Virus record (IMG/VR): IMGVR_UViG_3300029258_001677
Span: 1-20,573 of that record
From: a virus
Strand: one strand, 5' to 3'
DNA: 20,573 nt
This document shows positions 674 to 20,410 of this stretch, in pieces. The notes below the pieces were generated by a model. The model did no database searches. It was not told the origin of the DNA and saw only the letters and a program-made list of their open reading frames with translations. Each line of letters starts with the position of its first letter. The first letter of the stretch is position 1. Made by a program: the position numbers and the translations under genes.

Positions 674-2578
674 TTAAATCGTACTTCTGATCATCTGCCT
701 GAGCGCTCTGCCCCGCTGTAATTCTTTGACTACCACATCGATGATATATTTGCCGGATTCCTGACGGCCGCCTCGCTGTGTGGCCTCTAATGCCTGGCCG
801 CTCTGGTTGATCATATTGATTTCGATATTCGTGCCAGCGCCCTGGGTCTTGACGCCCAGGTCGCCTGATCGTGTGCGTGTTAAGGGTAAGACCCCTTCCG
901 GGCCTTTTTCGCCCATGAGGCCGGCTCCTGTGGCCATTGGAAAGATGGTGGGCCGTTCCACAATGCCGCCCCTGCCATAGGGAATTATAGAGCCTTTTTG
1001 AAACACACCGCCATGTGCACCGGTGAATATTTTACTCCAGTCTAAGCCCAACATCGGCTCAACGACCTGTTTCTGGATCACCATCTGGGTGATCATGCGG
1101 CCGAATGATTCCAGGATATCGGCGAATGTGGTTTCAGCGGTCCAGAGCATATCATTGAGCTGGCTTGAAAAGGTGGACGCCCAGCCGGTGACGGCATTTT
1201 TTAGATGATCAAAGATGGTGACGCCCTTCTCGTCAATAGATTTCAATGATTGCGCCAGGCCCTCATCTATCTCTTTTTCAAGGAGCATTATTGCGGTCTG
1301 TTCGCCGGCGATCCCTTCTATAAATTTATTCTGATCTGGAATTGTTTCCTGCATTCCTTTCCGGTACGCTGCCCAGGCTGCCTCGCTCTGTAATTGAAAT
1401 AATCTGAGCTCTGCATTGATCAGGCCTAATTCATAATCAAATTTCATTGTGTCGGTTCCAGTATCCGTGATTCCGCCGCGTGTACTACTTTTTCCCAAAT
1501 TTTTTAATGATCGATCAAACTCTTCATTTTTTCGCATTTGTTCGATGATAATCTCTTCACCGCCTTTAATCATCGATTCAATTTCAATCATGAATCCTTT
1601 GATTGTTTCTGCAGCATCACGGTATGGTTCACCAAGACGACCGGGAAGCTTTCCTAAAACAGTATAAAATTTCTCTAAACCGGAAAGTAAGAAATTAAGA
1701 CTTTTAAGCGCCGAAACATTGAGAATGTCAATTGCAATAACGCCTTCACTTATCATATTTATAAGAAATCCCATGCTTTTTACTATGTTAGTCATCGCCG
1801 GTAATAATTTTATTCCTATTGCTGCTGACATGTCTTCAATATTGGCCTTGAGTTGCTTCATCTGGTTCGCATACCCTTCCGAGGTACGTGCCATATCGCC
1901 GATTGCCGCCTCCGATCCTTCGACCATCAATATATAGGCGGCATGCGCCTTGTGCGCTGCAGTGAGTTCATCCTTTGTGGCTGCCAATCCCATTGCGAGT
2001 GCTTTTTCTTGAACGACTGTTGCGTTTAGCACCACGCCGTATTTTTTCATCGTTTCGTAGTTACCCACCAGGCCGGACTGAATATCCGCCATTACCTGGG
2101 CGGTGGGAAGATTGTTGAAGCTTCCGAGATCCGCAGACAGCTTCACGACTTCAAAGGACATCCGGCCAGCCGCATCCCTGGCCATGCCCATCGGCACGAG
2201 CAAATCCTGGATCGATGCTAAAAATTGTTTCGATTCGCGGGTTGACATGGCATAGGAATCGACTAATTGACCTGCCCATTTTTCAGCGAGTGTGATCTGA
2301 TCTGCAAAAACCACATTAAATTTGCTGTTTACTTCCTGAAGGTCGGAGGCGGCAGTAATAACCTCTTTGGCGACTAAAACAACGCCTGTCATTGCCGCAG
2401 TTACTGCCAGCCAGTGCTGACGGAGCTTTTGTAGGGATGAGGACATGCTCGCGGTGGAGGCCCTGGCATTGGCTTTCATTTTATTAAATGCCTGCTCGGT
2501 GTTTTTATCGAAGCTTTTGACAATTTTCGTTCCCTTGTCAGTCACTTCCAGGGTAATATAGACTTTATCTTTGGCCAT
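674..2578 (-). CDS. Tail tape measure protein, lambda-type C-terminus
   Basis: This 634-aa protein would sit inside the tail tube, set its length and help DNA entry. Residues 1-50 are Lys/Ala-rich and helical. A hydrophobic stretch follows (about 54-77), then the conserved tape-measure region with ASDLQEVNSKFNVVF and FLASIQDLLVPMGM. The region around residues 465-520 (WASTFSSQLNDMLW, FADILESFGRMI) looks like the lambda tape measure C-terminal domain. The tail end carries GRGGIVERPTIFPMATGAGLMGEKGPEGVLPL, spread over Gly-rich turns, a hallmark of these proteins. The ATG overlaps the stop of the frameshift extension by one base (TAATG), so the two are translationally coupled. At about 0.15 nm per residue it would give a tail of roughly 95 nm, a family rule of thumb and not a measurement. 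Confidence 0.93.
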   Translation of the reverse strand: MAKDKVYITLEVTDKGTKIVKSFDKNTEQAFNKMKANARASTASMSSSLQKLRQHWLAVTAAMTGVVLVAKEVITAASDLQEVNSKFNVVFADQITLAEKWAGQLVDSYAMSTRESKQFLASIQDLLVPMGMARDAAGRMSFEVVKLSADLGSFNNLPTAQVMADIQSGLVGNYETMKKYGVVLNATVVQEKALAMGLAATKDELTAAHKAHAAYILMVEGSEAAIGDMARTSEGYANQMKQLKANIEDMSAAIGIKLLPAMTNIVKSMGFLINMISEGVIAIDILNVSALKSLNFLLSGLEKFYTVLGKLPGRLGEPYRDAAETIKGFMIEIESMIKGGEEIIIEQMRKNEEFDRSLKNLGKSSTRGGITDTGTDTMKFDYELGLINAELRLFQLQSEAAWAAYRKGMQETIPDQNKFIEGIAGEQTAIMLLEKEIDEGLAQSLKSIDEKGVTIFDHLKNAVTGWASTFSSQLNDMLWTAETTFADILESFGRMITQMVIQKQVVEPMLGLDWSKIFTGAHGGVFQKGSIIPYGRGGIVERPTIFPMATGAGLMGEKGPEGVLPLTRTRSGDLGVKTQGAGTNIEINMINQSGQALEATQRGGRQESGKYIIDVVVKELQRGRALRQMIRSTI

Positions 2579-2901
2579 TAGTGTTTCCCGCGTTCCTGTT
2601 TTGTGATCAGTTGATGAATCATGATTAATTTTTCCAGCATACTGCGTGCCTCAGCCCTGGTAACCTGAATATCGAGCACTTCAAAGACCAGAGGAAGAGC
2701 ATGGAAGTCATACACAAACTGTGTGTTAATAATGTGATAGAGCTCCCAGATCTCATAATTTGCATCCGTGATTTGGTCAATCGGGCAATTTTCACATTCC
2801 GGCTCTGTAGCAAAATCCTGCCAGACCCGTTCGCAATGCGTGCAATCAAACTCCGGATAGTAGATCCGGCGGGTGACGAATGCTTCGAGGTTTGCTATGT
2901 C
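2578..2901 (-). CDS. Frameshift extension of the tail assembly chaperone (gpT-like), reached by -1 slippage
   Basis: This is a 107-codon open frame with no usable start: it is open from the slippery run at 2901-2910, and its first Met is near codon 88. It begins DIANLEAFVTRRIYYPEF and carries two CxxC pairs (C20/C23 and C36/C39 counted from D1), a likely zinc-binding knuckle, followed by helical NYEIWELYHIINTQF. It ends KQERGKH and its TAA overlaps the tape measure ATG. A gpG-T fusion made by -1 frameshifting is the rule for long-tailed phages just upstream of the tape measure. The fused product would be 228 aa (121 from the upstream frame plus 107). The Cys4 motif in this part is less usual. 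Reading it as decayed non-coding DNA is unlikely given the sustained open frame and motifs. Confidence 0.82.
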   Translation of the reverse strand, partial: DIANLEAFVTRRIYYPEFDCTHCERVWQDFATEPECENCPIDQITDANYEIWELYHIINTQFVYDFHALPLVFEVLDIQVTRAEARSMLEKLIMIHQLITKQERGKH

Positions 2902-3263
2902 TTTTTTTTTCCCTCTTGATTGCCGCTGCTGATAGAATCTGCGTCACATGCCTCGATGATCTGCACCTTGACCGTGCCCGGGAGTTTATTTTTATTGACC
3001 TTTGCGCATTCCACATCCTGGCCCGTGAGCGGTGATTTGATATTCTTCCAATCAATGATCATATAATCGAGCAGATCCTCATTCACCGCATAATCATCCA
3101 CCTCTTTGATCCAGCCACCCTGCCGGAAATTTTTGGTTCGTGTGGTATGTCTCTTTTCAATCTCCTTGTAGATTTGCGAATCAAAGCGCCGCAGGGTGAA
3201 ACTGCTCTCTCCGATGGCCAGTTCAAAAGTCTCCTGGTCCTCGATAATTTCAATAAAGCTCAT
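2895..3263 (-). CDS. Tail assembly chaperone, zero frame (gpG-like)
   Basis: This 122-aa protein should coat the tape measure during tail assembly. It starts MSFIEIIEDQETFELAIG, giving a short beta-rich N-terminus (about residues 3-30), then helices rich in Lys/Arg/Glu and a Lys-rich C-terminus ending GKKKT. The start has a GGAGG site 4 nt upstream. Family assignment rests on length, position between tail tube and tape measure, and the slippery sequence at its end rather than on a recognised motif. A full-length product and a -1 fusion product are both expected; in known phages the unshifted form dominates. Confidence 0.8.
   Translation of the reverse strand: MSFIEIIEDQETFELAIGESSFTLRRFDSQIYKEIEKRHTTRTKNFRQGGWIKEVDDYAVNEDLLDYMIIDWKNIKSPLTGQDVECAKVNKNKLPGTVKVQIIEACDADSISSGNQEGKKKT
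2901..2910 (-). promoter_or_regulatory. Slippery heptamer A-AAA-AAG for programmed -1 ribosomal frameshift
   Basis: On the minus strand the zero frame reads GGA AAA AAA AAG ACA TAG, so A-AAA-AAG sits in the right phase, two codons before the zero-frame stop at 2895-2897. Slipping back one base gives AAA AAA GAC ATA and enters the 107-codon downstream frame. This heptamer is the classic one of E. coli dnaX. The nine-A run could also allow transcriptional slippage. I did not identify a definite downstream stimulatory hairpin by eye. Confidence 0.8.
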
Positions 3264-3274
3264 ATAGCCTCCTT

Positions 3275-4168
3275 TTATGCATTTGCTTTAAATGATGGCA
3301 CGCCCTCGAGTGTGAAGGCGATCGCCTCTTTGATGATCTCATTGACCGGTGCCTTGTAATCCAGGGATTCAAAGACAGCCCAGACAACAAAATGATCGCC
3401 GGTCTGGTCCTGGTCCGGGTCGTAATTGAAGAGCTCGAGCAGAAAATAGTTCTGCGTGGTATCGATGGAATCCTCGAGCTCCGGAAAGAACGCATCGCAT
3501 CCGATATAATAGGCTTGTGCATTTCCTTTACCGCCTGCCTGGCCCGGGAGATAGTCCTTCCACTCCTGACCCATACGCAGGATCTCCGATAAATCTAACG
3601 AGAGATCCAGAGACCATTCATAGAGATAGCCGACCTTTTCAAGGCCGGACCGGACAATATAGCCATTGTTGCCGGTAACGGTCACGACCGTGACATTGCC
3701 GTCAAAGGTAGCCTTGCCCTGGGAAAAATCGGTAATCAGGACGTTTTTTGACCCGGTATCGCTAAACGTGGGCGGGCTGTTCGGGTTGATGATCCGCCGG
3801 GTTGTCTCGGTGATCTGTGCATCGGCACCTGATTCGGTGCATGCCTCGTCCCTGAGGTTGCCGATGGTCCACTGATCATCGGCCGTGTGGCCGGTGGTGG
3901 CCCCGAATGTGATGGTCTGGCCGTCGCTCAAGGTCTGGGCCGCACCGGTGATAGAGACATTTTCCGTCCATCCGCCGCCGTCTTTTCGCCATTTGAATTT
4001 GTCGGGCGTGCCCTCGGTCTGGATCACCACCTCAAAATATGCGGATGCGCCGCCTGAGTAGCCGGTGCCCCAGGTGACATCATTGAGGCCGTTGCCCTTA
4101 AAATTGTTTGGTCGCAGGCGAAAGATTGCCGCCACCTTCCCATGCGTCGGGACTGTTGGGCTTGACAT
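3275..4168 (-). CDS. Tail tube protein homologue with inserted beta domain
   Basis: This 297-aa protein shares its N-terminus (PTHGKVA at residues 6-12), its core (QEWKDYLPGQAGG, GNAQAYYIG, about residues 200-221) and its C-terminus (SLDYKAPVNEI, AFTLEGVPSF) with the smaller neighbouring tail-tube protein, so the two are paralogues. It carries roughly 150 extra residues after the first 20: a Gly/Thr-rich beta module (GTGYSGGASAYFEVV, KFKWRKDGGGWTE, LSDGQTITFGATTGHTADDQWTI) of a kind seen decorating phage tails. GGAG lies 6 nt before the ATG. It is probably either the major tail tube subunit with a surface domain or a minor tube/neck component. Which paralogue forms the bulk of the tube cannot be told from sequence. 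Confidence 0.8.
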   Translation of the reverse strand: MSSPTVPTHGKVAAIFRLRPNNFKGNGLNDVTWGTGYSGGASAYFEVVIQTEGTPDKFKWRKDGGGWTENVSITGAAQTLSDGQTITFGATTGHTADDQWTIGNLRDEACTESGADAQITETTRRIINPNSPPTFSDTGSKNVLITDFSQGKATFDGNVTVVTVTGNNGYIVRSGLEKVGYLYEWSLDLSLDLSEILRMGQEWKDYLPGQAGGKGNAQAYYIGCDAFFPELEDSIDTTQNYFLLELFNYDPDQDQTGDHFVVWAVFESLDYKAPVNEIIKEAIAFTLEGVPSFKANA

Positions 4169-4179
4169 GATTCACTCCA

Positions 4180-4247
4180 TTCATGTCCGTTGTTAGTTGC
4201 TTGTTGTCCGTTGCAACGGACAATGGACCACGGACAACTGATAATTC
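4180..4247. repeat. TTGTCCG-family inverted repeat between the two tail-tube genes
   Basis: The gap contains GTCCGTTGTTAGTTG and TTGTTGTCCGTTG followed by complementary CAACGGACAATGG and CCACGGACAACTG. The centre (4204-4223) is a perfect 20-nt palindrome, and the outer arms extend the stem imperfectly. It has no coding potential. Similar words occur at 6438-6470 and 18302-18363. Confidence 0.8.
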
Positions 4248-4664
4248 TTACTGTGAATCTGACAGGCTCGGTGCGCCGGATCCCACAAAGGTGAAGGAAA
4301 TGTCAACGTGTCCGCCCACCGGTGCCGAAACATTTATGTTATTGATATAAATATCGCCGTTCCAGCCTTCGGTTGAGCCGTCGATCAGAAATTTCATATC
4401 CGTGAGCTTGGTGCCCGGGCTTGCCGTGCCCAGATTGTCATGCAGGGCCTTTTGCTCGGTGTTGCCGAGCACGCAGTGCCCCTTGAAATCACCGGCCCAG
4501 GATGCCTGGCCTGGGGTGTTATCTTTCCAGTTCTGACCCTGGCGTTCCTGTGGTGCCATATCGATAGCAAAATTGAGATTCCATCCACCGATATAATCAA
4601 CGGCAACGTCGTTTTTCTCCAGGCGTGCGACCTTGCCATGCGTGGGTGTGGTTGTATAGGACAT
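4248..4664 (-). CDS. Major tail tube protein
   Basis: This 138-aa protein is the likely structural subunit of a non-contractile tail tube. It begins MSYTTTPTHGKVARLEKND and has NWKDNTPGQASWAGDFKG in the middle, followed by helix-forming KALHDNLGTA and a beta-rich C-terminus ending VDISFTFVGSGAPSL. These fit the TP901-1/lambda-type tail tube fold, and its size is normal for that group. GGAGG lies 6 nt before the ATG. It lies directly before its larger paralogue, which repeats the same N-terminal, core and C-terminal motifs. Confidence 0.83.
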   Translation of the reverse strand: MSYTTTPTHGKVARLEKNDVAVDYIGGWNLNFAIDMAPQERQGQNWKDNTPGQASWAGDFKGHCVLGNTEQKALHDNLGTASPGTKLTDMKFLIDGSTEGWNGDIYINNINVSAPVGGHVDISFTFVGSGAPSLSDSQ

Positions 4665-6474: not shown

Positions 6475-6843
6475 TTATTCCGGTTTTAGTAATTCAAACA
6501 ACTCCACCTTCCGTGCCTTGTCGTCGTATTCAATGCTCCGGGTATCGAGTTCGGCCTTAATCTGCGCAACGGTCATAGTGTCGATAGTAATGCTTTTTTC
6601 AAGCGCTGGCTCCGGTTCAGGCGCTGGCTCCGGTTCAGGCTCTGGCTCCGTCTCCGGTTCCGGCTCCGGCTCCGGTTCCGGTTCTATCTCATCGGGAATC
6701 AATTCCACAATCAGCATGGATTCGGTCTCCAGGGTTGCGAGTTCTTTTTTTGAAAATCGATCATCGGGATAATCAACCGGCTCCTTTGGATGTGACATAC
6801 CGCACCGGCGAAAGTTATGCCTTTTGCTCCGTATTCGGATCAT
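6475..6843 (-). CDS. Mu gp35-like protein with Glu-Pro repeat and HeH/LEM-like C-terminus
   Basis: This 122-aa protein has a basic N-terminus (MIRIRSKRHNFRRC), a middle of about 28 residues of alternating Glu-Pro (about 53-80), and a C-terminal domain MTVAQIKAELDTRSIEYDD then KARKVELFELL (about 88-119). This last part is a two-helix HeH/LEM/SAP-like fold seen in Mu-like gp35 proteins. GGAGG lies 6 nt upstream of the first ATG, favouring the longer start over the internal MSHPKEP. The Glu-Pro stretch is encoded by tandem near-identical 6-nt units (6606-6690) and can easily vary in length. A DNA- or capsid-binding role is a guess. Confidence 0.75.
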   Translation of the reverse strand: MIRIRSKRHNFRRCGMSHPKEPVDYPDDRFSKKELATLETESMLIVELIPDEIEPEPEPEPEPETEPEPEPEPAPEPEPALEKSITIDTMTVAQIKAELDTRSIEYDDKARKVELFELLKPE

Positions 6844-16630: not shown

Positions 16631-16822
16631 TCAAGTTTTTTCAGCATCTTCAATTTTCTCGATATACACCCATTTTCCGCAGTGCTTGCATCTGGTTTTA
16701 ACCTTACTTGTTTTGGCCTCCATTAAGATATGTTTACATTTCGGGCAGCGGAAAAAAGGGCCTGCATCCGTTTTCATTTCATCATGTCGCCATATTGATT
16801 TGTACCCGGGATTAATCGTCAT
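16631..16822 (-). CDS. Com-like zinc-ribbon protein
   Basis: This 63-aa protein has FRCPKCKHILMEAK then KTRCKHCGKWVYIEKI: two CxxC pairs about 15 residues apart, the layout of Mu Com, the zinc-finger regulator that turns on translation of the mom DNA-modification gene. The similarity is in layout and in the KHILMEA/CKxCGK positions; I cannot confirm homology by eye. No Mom-like gene is in the window. It overlaps the end of the Gam-like gene by 11 nt, so it is in the same operon. A generic zinc ribbon is the alternative. Confidence 0.65.
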   Translation of the reverse strand: MTINPGYKSIWRHDEMKTDAGPFFRCPKCKHILMEAKTSKVKTRCKHCGKWVYIEKIEDAEKT

Positions 16823-18282: not shown

Positions 18283-18522
18283 TTAACTCCCTCCGGTCGT
18301 TATGTCCGTCGTTTGTTGTCCGTTGTCCGTTGCAACTGACGACTGACCACAGACAACTGACATTTGTTCCTCTTTTAACTCAGCGATCTTTGCCTCCAGA
18401 AGCTCTTTGCCCTTCTCACATTCCGCACATTTTTTGAGTCCTTTTCGATAGCGATTCATACACGCGGCCTCAGCCATCTGAAGATGCCACCGTTCACAAA
18501 AAAAGTATTTCTGTTTGCTCAT
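18283..18522 (-). CDS. Small Cys-rich protein with repeat-derived C-terminal tail
   Basis: This 79-aa protein starts MSKQKYFFCERWHLQMAEAA. Cysteines 9, 21, 32 and 35 (the last pair CAEC, before a Gly) and a helix KGKELLEAKIAELKEEQ follow a small zinc-knuckle pattern common in phages. Residues 54-74 (MSVVCGQSSV, ATDNGQQTTD) are the translation of a TTGTCCG-family repeat at 18302-18363, so the original end was probably shorter. The start overlaps the upstream stop by 4 nt. Role unknown. Confidence 0.68.
   Translation of the reverse strand: MSKQKYFFCERWHLQMAEAACMNRYRKGLKKCAECEKGKELLEAKIAELKEEQMSVVCGQSSVATDNGQQTTDITTGGS
18302..18363. repeat. TTGTCCG-family repeat inside a coding region
   Basis: It contains GTCCGTCGTTTGTTGTCCG, TTGTCCGTTGCAACTGACG and GACTGACCACAGACAACTG. 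The two halves are inverted relative to one another, as in the gap element at 4180-4247. It is read in frame as the tail of the 79-aa protein. Confidence 0.8.
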
Positions 18523-19373
18523 AACATCCCCTGCGCTTCATCGAACATATCTATCACCTCAGATGATACACCGTACTCCTCGTCCGGATCGTCAAAATCC
18601 ATCGACTCCGTAACCTCTGAACCTTTGAACCTTGAACCTTGAGCCTCTTCTCCCTGAACCTTCGTTAGAATCTCCACCATCCAATATTTATCCACCTTCC
18701 GGAAATCGATCACCGCCACATTCGCAACGATAAACTCCCGCACCCATTCCGGCCGGATATACCATTCATCCCCGCCCTGGGACTCTGTCCGTGCCGTGCC
18801 GCGCCGCTGCGCCGTGAGCCAGCCCCTGGTGATCCACCGCATGATTGAATGAGCATCAATGCCAAACAGCCGTGCCAGCGACCGCATAGTATAGCCGTTC
18901 ATGGTAGCGCGGGAAAGATGCAGATGTTTTCGTTTGAGCTGGATCCCCTGCTGTGACCTTCGATATCCCGCACGTTTCAAATATTTTTGGATGACCGGTG
19001 TGCTCCGGTGCGCGCACTGCTTGAGGATCCAGATCTCGGTATCCGACCAAGGCGGCTCCTTTTTCTGCACGGGTACGACCCCGAGCTCGACCGCCCGTTT
19101 GCCCACCGCCCACCAGGGCATGCCGAATCGTTCGGCCAGTTTCTTGACCGGGCCTTTATACCGATCTTTCTTCCATCCCATTTTTACCCGCTCCAGGTAG
19201 AGCTTTATGATCTTCGCATCCATCTCAGCGGTGAACACATGTTTTCTTGGCTTATGTCCGGAATGGAACCGGTGTTTGCATGCCGCATTGCAGTATTTCG
19301 GGGCCGGAGCCCCCGGACCCCGGTATATCATTTTGATTTCCCCGCATGGGCATTTCACTTCATGGTATGGCAT
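18519..19373 (-). CDS. Zinc and SANT/HTH-type DNA-binding protein
   Basis: This 284-aa protein has an N-terminal Cys/His cluster (C8, C10, C28, C32; about residues 8-40), two SANT/Myb-like helical units (about 46-97, with FTAEMDAKIIKLYLERVK, and 108-154, with WSDTEIWILKQCAHRSTPVI), and then an HTH (about 159-190, MRSLARLFGIDAHSIMRWIT). A strong GGAGG site precedes the ATG. Residues 239-256 (QGEEAQGSRFKGSEVTES) are the translation of a GTTCA-family repeat. It is likely a transcriptional or DNA-targeting regulator. Target unknown. Overlaps the DUF5131 gene end by 14 nt. Confidence 0.65.
   Translation of the reverse strand: MPYHEVKCPCGEIKMIYRGPGAPAPKYCNAACKHRFHSGHKPRKHVFTAEMDAKIIKLYLERVKMGWKKDRYKGPVKKLAERFGMPWWAVGKRAVELGVVPVQKKEPPWSDTEIWILKQCAHRSTPVIQKYLKRAGYRRSQQGIQLKRKHLHLSRATMNGYTMRSLARLFGIDAHSIMRWITRGWLTAQRRGTARTESQGGDEWYIRPEWVREFIVANVAVIDFRKVDKYWMVEILTKVQGEEAQGSRFKGSEVTESMDFDDPDEEYGVSSEVIDMFDEAQGML
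18614..18660. repeat. GTTCA-family repeat inside a coding region
   Basis: It reads GAACCTTTGAACCTTGAACC, TTGAGCC, then CCTGAACC, the same word set as the gap elements at 9021-9090 and 20431-20466. It encodes the low-complexity QGEEAQGSRFKGSE part of the 284-aa protein. Confidence 0.78.
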
Positions 19374-20205
19374 AATCTACCTCCGGGATCTCATTCCATT
19401 CCCGGCCATCGAGAATGTGGCCGGTTGATTTTTTATTAATCCCGCCCCACTGCTTAAAAAAGAACGGCACTCCCGCCGCCTGGCATTGATCTCTGATCGA
19501 ACGGGGCCAGTCAGGATGCATGGGCCGTGCCCCTGGTCCGGACTCGCCGCCGCAGATGATCCAATCAATTCCATCATCTCGTGGCTCAATGTCGTAGCCC
19601 CAGTCATCCTCACCTGGCCCCCAGCAAACGGTAGTTTGTTGATATAACCATTCATCGAGATTAATCGGCCCTAACATCGGCTCGATGCTCACGCCCCGTT
19701 TGGCCGCAGGAATCTGCAACAAGATCGGGATCCGCTCATCTGCTCGCTTTTGATTTTCAACGCTAACCCCGAGCCAGACATTTTTTCGTTCATATCCATG
19801 TGGATATCTATGAGACAGAAACTCTAATGCCCTTTCCGGTCTTTTAGTCAGCACCATATATGTATGACCAGGTCTTTTTTTAACTGGCAAAATATCGCCA
19901 TTCCGATCGTGAAATTCGCCCATTCGTTGCCATATTGCGAGAATATCGTATTCAGAGACATCTGGATGAAACAGATCACCCATCGAGCAGACAAATATCA
20001 TTCGGGGCTTTTTCCAGCGGAGCGGTTGATACAGCCTGTCCGGATGAAACGTCACACGAAACGGATCATCCTTTGGATAACCGCATCGTCCCCGGAGTCG
20101 CTGGGCCATGCGGCGGGCATAGCAGTGTTCACACCCTTCGCTGATCGGTGTGCATCCGATGATCGGATTCCATGACTCCTCTGCCCATTCAATCTTTGTC
20201 GGCAT
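19360..20205 (-). CDS. DUF5131 family, phage Gp37/Gp68-like protein
   Basis: This 281-aa protein (start MPTKIEWAEESWNPIIGCTP, chosen because GGGGAAGAG lies just upstream of this ATG) carries the family motifs: WNPIIGCTPISEGCEHCYA with C18/C25/C28, FVCSMGDLFHPDVSEYDI (about 82-99), VLTKRPERALEFL, NVWLGVSVENQ and WIICGGESGPGARPM, PFFFKQWGG near the end. The Cys pattern is C-x6-C-x2-C; radical-SAM-like fold and a nucleotide- or DNA-modifying role have been suggested for this family, but the reaction is not established to my knowledge. It overlaps the upstream 73-aa gene by 17 nt. An extended start at 20238 is possible but lacks a site. Confidence 0.9.
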   Translation of the reverse strand: MPTKIEWAEESWNPIIGCTPISEGCEHCYARRMAQRLRGRCGYPKDDPFRVTFHPDRLYQPLRWKKPRMIFVCSMGDLFHPDVSEYDILAIWQRMGEFHDRNGDILPVKKRPGHTYMVLTKRPERALEFLSHRYPHGYERKNVWLGVSVENQKRADERIPILLQIPAAKRGVSIEPMLGPINLDEWLYQQTTVCWGPGEDDWGYDIEPRDDGIDWIICGGESGPGARPMHPDWPRSIRDQCQAAGVPFFFKQWGGINKKSTGHILDGREWNEIPEVDYAIP

Positions 20206-20410
20206 CTCTCTTCCCCTTATATCCATGAAACGGCACAATATGATTTCTGGTGAACCGCCGGGTATATTCCTGCGAGAGCGCTTTCATATCCGCACGCAGC
20301 TTCATAATTTCATCGTTCAGTTCAAGAGGCTGATACATCTGCAGCATGATCGCCGCTCCCAGACATGCGCCCAACAATATAATCGCCACAAATCGTATCG
20401 TTGAAATCAT
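20189..20410 (-). CDS. Small membrane-anchored protein
   Basis: This 73-aa protein begins MISTIRFVAIILLGACLGAA: one membrane span (about 5-25), then a helix with LNDEIMKLRADMKALSQEY and a basic C-terminus. I see no good Shine-Dalgarno before the ATG. It could be translated weakly or by coupling; the gap upstream is repeat-filled. Role unknown. Confidence 0.55.
   Translation of the reverse strand: MISTIRFVAIILLGACLGAAIMLQMYQPLELNDEIMKLRADMKALSQEYTRRFTRNHIVPFHGYKGKRDADKD

Follow-up and report, generated by a model that had tools for sequence, protein, structure and literature searches.

A probable gpG/gpGT-type tail assembly chaperone pair whose T part carries a conserved Cys4 knuckle, in an uncultivated virus contig

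Pairs of tail assembly chaperones made by a change of reading frame, a short G protein and a longer G-T fusion, are a known kind of phage gene product. The closest described system is gpG/gpGT of phage lambda, with counterparts in HK97, P2 and the T1-like phages, in which the genes stand in the order tube, G, T, tape measure; T overlaps the end of G in the -1 frame, has no start of its own and is entered at a slippery heptamer near the G stop. In the Drexlerviridae the corresponding T part is the DUF1799 (PF08809)/TfmS "tape measure chaperone", which is reached by a -1 shift at A_AAA_AAC or G_GGA_AAC. Two other kinds of system change frame on runs of A residues. Among the A-type heptamers, A_AAA_AAG shifts most readily in E. 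coli and is also the dnaX site (PMC5009743), and a run of nine As is itself a place where bacterial RNA polymerase slips (PMC1088944, PMC5009743); runs of A8 to A10 fuse open reading frames by transcriptional slippage in IS elements and likewise in Thermus dnaX, and selection against slippage is seen at run length nine in many bacteria (PMC1088944).

The window (the whole stretch of DNA analyzed here, a 20.6-kb virus contig) carries on its minus strand a set of Mu-type head genes (terminase, portal, protease I, major head protein and gp36) and a tail module with the major tail protein, the G/T pair, the tape measure protein and a DUF2460 protein. Of the proteins searched, none was recognised as a tail sheath. 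The features of the locus are as follows:

674 to 2578, minus strand: tail length tape measure protein gene (phrog_1716, E 8.6e-20), with its ATG at 2578-2576
2578 to 2901, minus strand: T extension in the -1 frame (107 amino acids and a TAA), predicted to be reached through the shift alone
2785 to 2844, minus strand: Cys4 knuckle, CX2C-X12-CX2C, cysteines 141, 144, 157 and 160 of the fusion
2895 to 2897, minus strand: zero-frame stop TAG, one codon past the heptamer
2895 to 3263, minus strand: G-type tail assembly chaperone ORF, zero frame, 122 amino acids (homologues match PHROGs; its model resembles chaperones)
2901 to 2910, minus strand: A9G shift site, with the nine As at 2910-2902 and the in-phase heptamer A_AAA_AAG at 2907-2901
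3275 to 4168, minus strand: tail protein upstream of G (weak PHROGs match, phrog_365, E 0.0076)
4248 to 4664, minus strand: major tail protein (phrog_1407, E 1.2e-11)

The G ORF lies directly upstream of the tape measure gene, and the G/T pair sits between that gene and the tail tube gene, which is the classical gpG/gpGT place. The G ORF ends in CAA GAG GGA AAA AAA AAG ACA TAG, and the -1 frame is open from 49 nt ahead of the zero-frame stop to the TAA at 2580-2578; this stop and the ATG of the tape measure gene overlap as TAATG. A shift at the heptamer would add 107 residues and give a G-T fusion of 228 amino acids, in which the four knuckle cysteines fall in the T part and two further cysteines (86 and 106) in the G part. 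Ahead of the knuckle the -1 frame has no ATG, GTG or TTG; the first such codon is a GTG about 190 nt past the heptamer, downstream of the cysteines. All of this agrees with the original prediction, which had been made from the letters of the window and had given the 122-codon ORF, the heptamer close to TAG, the 107-codon -1 frame without a usable start, the TAA/ATG overlap and the two CxxC pairs at 141-144 and 157-160 in the same positions.

Several other elements of the window were seen in passing. A 70-nt element is present twice (4183-4252 and 18302-18371, 80% identity); it is partly palindromic, has a unit like GTCCGTTGTC...GACAACTGA, runs into the 3' ends of two genes and looks like a small mobile or host repeat. 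A 122-residue protein with a long Glu-Pro repeat is encoded between the head genes (6475-6843, minus strand), and a full DUF5131 protein (19360-20238, minus strand, E 4e-87) lies beyond the structural module, at the end of the contig. Finally, positions 16631-16822 (minus strand) encode a 63-residue, zinc-ribbon-like protein with two CxxC pairs, below Pfam cut-offs, which is reminiscent of the Mu Com regulator.

Are the two parts of the predicted fusion related to known tail chaperones? Sequence searches with the window protein in Pfam, PHROGs and PDB gave nothing significant, BLAST detects no similarity of its G or T to phage records, and the annotated phages and plasmids searched yielded relatives of neither the window fusion nor a core homologue. 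The structural model of G (pLDDT 72.7) has as its two top solved-structure matches YqbN (3klu, Z 6.3) and the HK97 tail assembly chaperone (2ob9, Z 5.1); these Z values are moderate, both being below 8, yet both of the top two rows are chaperones. The model also matches many viral tail chaperones in BFVD (best E 3.2e-6), and homologues of the G part match the PHROGs tail assembly chaperone/XkdN. The G part thus resembles, as far as a model can tell, the tail assembly chaperone fold.

The T part has no Pfam hit, being below the curated cut-off of DUF1799, and its model is all helical (pLDDT 81.7). The best match of that model is the T part of the T1-like phage F20, a "tape measure chaperone" (Foldseek probability 0.99, but with an E of 0.10, which is weak); against PDB structures it finds only unrelated helical proteins at Z 3.6 or less. 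Profile comparison is more informative: the T profile aligns by hhalign with nine cultured-phage T parts at a probability of 94% (E 1.5e-7), the wider Cys4 set does so at 96.8% (E 2.7e-10), and one Cys4 relative (L068/L080) scores above the Pfam threshold for DUF1799 (E 2.4e-12); its match to TfmS of T1-like phages (E 1e-8) covers residues 28-111 and so leaves out the first Cys pair. These comparisons support a shared C-terminal helical core and a remote relationship of the window T part to the frameshifted DUF1799/TfmS T parts of T1-like phages; since it lies below Pfam detection we call it a remote relative and not a member of DUF1799. The four cysteines are absent at that place from the examined DUF1799/TfmS members, and lambda T also lacks the motif. 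Because the cultured T parts inspected share the core but not the knuckle, we take the core to be an old domain, and it is the knuckle that sets this branch apart; the N-terminal segment of a DUF1799/TfmS-like T domain may have been replaced by the knuckle, or may have gained it.

With G resembling tail assembly chaperones and T remotely related to known frameshifted T parts, the original assignment of the locus to the gpG/gpGT type is strengthened, and we consider it very probable that the locus is such a pair with a Cys4 knuckle in T. Most translations would then stop at TAG and yield the 122-residue G protein, and a minority would enter the -1 frame at A9G and yield the 228-residue fusion. 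Following the lambda model, the tape measure protein would receive a coat of G parts, and tail tube subunits would be brought in by the T part; we infer the synthesis of the fusion, its ratio to G, its binding partners and its binding of a metal, and observe directly the layout of the ORFs, the conservation of frame, heptamer and cysteines, and the remote homology.

Homologues of G and T were sought by scanning IMG/VR and GTDB genomes, and the homologous set was defined as the 18 loci that hold both parts after removal of duplicates. T lies in the -1 frame of G in 18/18, and the overlap contains an in-phase heptamer in every one of them (A_AAA_AAG/A/C/T in 17 and G_GGA_AAA in L045), with the zero-frame stop 1-17 codons past it. 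Since in-phase X_XXY_YYZ heptamers make up only about 0.5% of codons in the other long ORFs of the same loci, their presence in 18 of 18 short overlaps is not chance. Three more distant loci (L029, L033 and L034) have a different G and the site A_AAT_TTG, and T is again in the -1 frame. The T frame has dN/dS values of 0.09-0.23 among the homologues, which indicates purifying selection. Among 395 bacterial genomes from the phylum to which L051's genome belongs, 15 have a match to the T profile, and 11 prophage-like loci in Desulfobacterota genomes carry a knuckle-bearing T in the -1 frame behind very different G parts, some of which match PHROG 313 "Tail assembly chaperone"; an in-phase heptamer was identified in nine of the 11 (the shift-site script assigned no site in L068 and L070). 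The original prediction was open to refutation by stops scattered through the -1 frame of related phages; in every relative that frame is open and conserved.

The above comparisons bear on the presence of a frame change, but by which route is it made? The shift sites split into two kinds, runs of A8 to A10 without an SD sequence and short or mixed heptamers mostly with one. Runs of A8 to A10, most often of exactly nine, are found in 13 of the 18 homologous loci, the window included, and A4, A6 or A7 in the other five. An SD sequence at stimulatory spacing is present at none of the 13 A8-A10 loci and at 14 of 17 short/mixed loci (Fisher p 5e-6, uncorrected for relatedness), a contrast that was noticed after the fact and is partly confounded by relatedness. 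At those 14 the sequence is GGAGG or close to it and stands 4-13 nt upstream, mostly at 7 or 10, and its pairing energy ranks in the best 0-8% of the locus's own G sequence. (Near-perfect GGAGG 4-13 nt before the shift site was recorded in L026, L027, L029, L033, L034, L058-L063, L071, L072 and L074.) It looks as though run length and SD stimulation trade off between sites. In the window, the SD-like GAGGG is just 3 nt from the heptamer, which is too close and not unusual for this gene. The site thus has the same A_AAA_AAG as E. coli dnaX but not the upstream SD sequence that dnaX and many relatives have, and, again unlike dnaX, it has no significant 3' stem-loop, and the shift would yield an extension instead of a truncation. 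The nearest hairpin is about 31 nt past the heptamer (z -0.6 to -1.5, not significant), and the window and five relatives together have z values of -2.3 to +1.5 with no consistent element; folding of 2800-2900, where the original prediction had proposed to look for a stimulator, therefore gave no convincing candidate.

The alternative that survives best is that in some mRNAs one extra A is inserted by RNA polymerase at the A9 run, after which ordinary translation would run from G into T, this route acting alone or in addition to the ribosomal one. Transcriptional slippage gives the same fusion, so a ribosomal -1 shift is not the only reading of the locus. The window's A9 is its only A-run of at least nine on either strand, in 83 kb of these loci a run of exactly nine As occurs nine times, each time at the shift site, and none of the 13 A8-A10 loci has a stimulatory SD sequence; the length lies within the A8-A10 used by IS elements and is the one at which many bacteria show selection against slippage (PMC1088944). 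The window resembles the IS elements and Thermus dnaX in joining two frames by an A9 run, but it differs from them in being a phage tail gene, part of whose family uses non-homopolymer ribosomal sites with an SD sequence. Runs of at least eight As always contain an in-phase A_AAA_AA and so cannot discriminate between the mechanisms, the window has the best E. coli heptamer, and sites that fit ribosomal and not polymerase slippage are found both in close relatives (A6, A7, G_GGA_AAA) and in distant ones (A_AAT_TTG, G_GGA_AAC). The variety of X_XXY_YYZ heptamers in the relatives supports tandem ribosomal slippage for the family. Given the two kinds of sites, the non-discriminating runs and the known slippage of polymerase on A9, we regard tandem tRNA slippage at A_AAA_AAG as the likelier route in the window and polymerase slippage there as possible but rather unlikely. 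The "programmed -1 frameshift" of the original prediction thus stands in its conserved open frame and heptamer, and not in taking the ribosome as the sole route from the A9 run. A still bolder version, that the window's clade uses transcriptional slippage on a selected A9, that its Cys4 sister phages use an SD-stimulated ribosomal -1 shift, and that the level of recoding was switched in evolution, we hold to be a tentative and slightly more doubtful proposal.

The knuckle itself is the most constant part of T. Its four cysteines are the only invariant columns across the 21 T parts (those of the 18 homologous and three distant loci), although their codons vary between TGC and TGT at every site, and answer the original call to look for kept cysteines in related phages. 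The spacing is CX2C-X12-CX2C or a few residues longer in 21/21; more distant loci alter the second pair, to CX3C in L061 and CX5C in L063. Inspection of T parts from cultured phages (F20, Loki, lambda and nine records) showed no knuckle. The literature searched yielded no description of a zinc or cysteine motif in tail chaperones, and although absence there is no proof, a Cys4 knuckle in a gpGT-type T part is apparently undescribed so far. Small zinc ribbons usually have this spacing, CX2C-X12-CX2C. Its spacing and conservation suggest that the knuckle is probably a metal site, which would most likely hold a single structural zinc ion and lie between the linker of G and the helical core of T. 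The four cysteines could instead be ligands of an Fe-S cluster or a thiol redox switch, and the lack of a His among them and the occurrence of relatives in genomes of Desulfobacterota, largely anaerobes in which Fe-S sites are stable, are in keeping with this; the zinc-ribbon spacing, and the absence of an obvious need for redox chemistry in what would be a transient cytoplasmic chaperone, make it improbable.

Outside the phage loci, Desulfobacterota chromosomes contain eight single ORFs of about 200 amino acids (L064-L067, L069, L073, L075 and L076) that combine the same Cys4 knuckle with a T-like part in a single frame; L083 (G287:C1 near 3172800) is an example of such single-frame ORFs. Their neighbourhoods are non-phage; the ones read have a recJ-like gene next to the ORF and enolase nearby. 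Their profile matches T (97.8%, E 6.7e-13), and their N-terminal part is colinear with G at a level that is not significant (E 0.06). They are possibly domesticated in-frame GT genes.

Two remaining explanations were rejected on the evidence of the relatives. Separate translation of T from its own start, with no fusion, has a precedent in one T1-like record annotated with an independent RBS for the T part, but it is very improbable in a frame that offers no start codon ahead of the knuckle. Least credible of all is a sequencing error or decayed gene (one in-frame ORF in the true genome, or T as a pseudogene): homopolymers are error-prone and the window is a single metagenomic contig, but the sequence recurs unchanged in two further contigs (L002/L006 and L003/L007), the -1 layout is shared by many independent contigs, some of whose sites have no homopolymer, purifying selection acts in both frames, and the retention of layout, heptamer and cysteines in relatives makes chance very unlikely as well.

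The probable G/GT pair described here thus brings to light a variant of the T domain, its putative metal site strictly conserved, that is carried by many uncultivated phages and Desulfobacterota prophages and was not found in the phage records searched. Its relatives also provide a natural series of shift sites, A9 without an SD sequence, A6 with one and A_AAT_TTG with one, which allows a direct test of whether phages exchange transcriptional for ribosomal recoding as a means of setting the ratio of G to GT.
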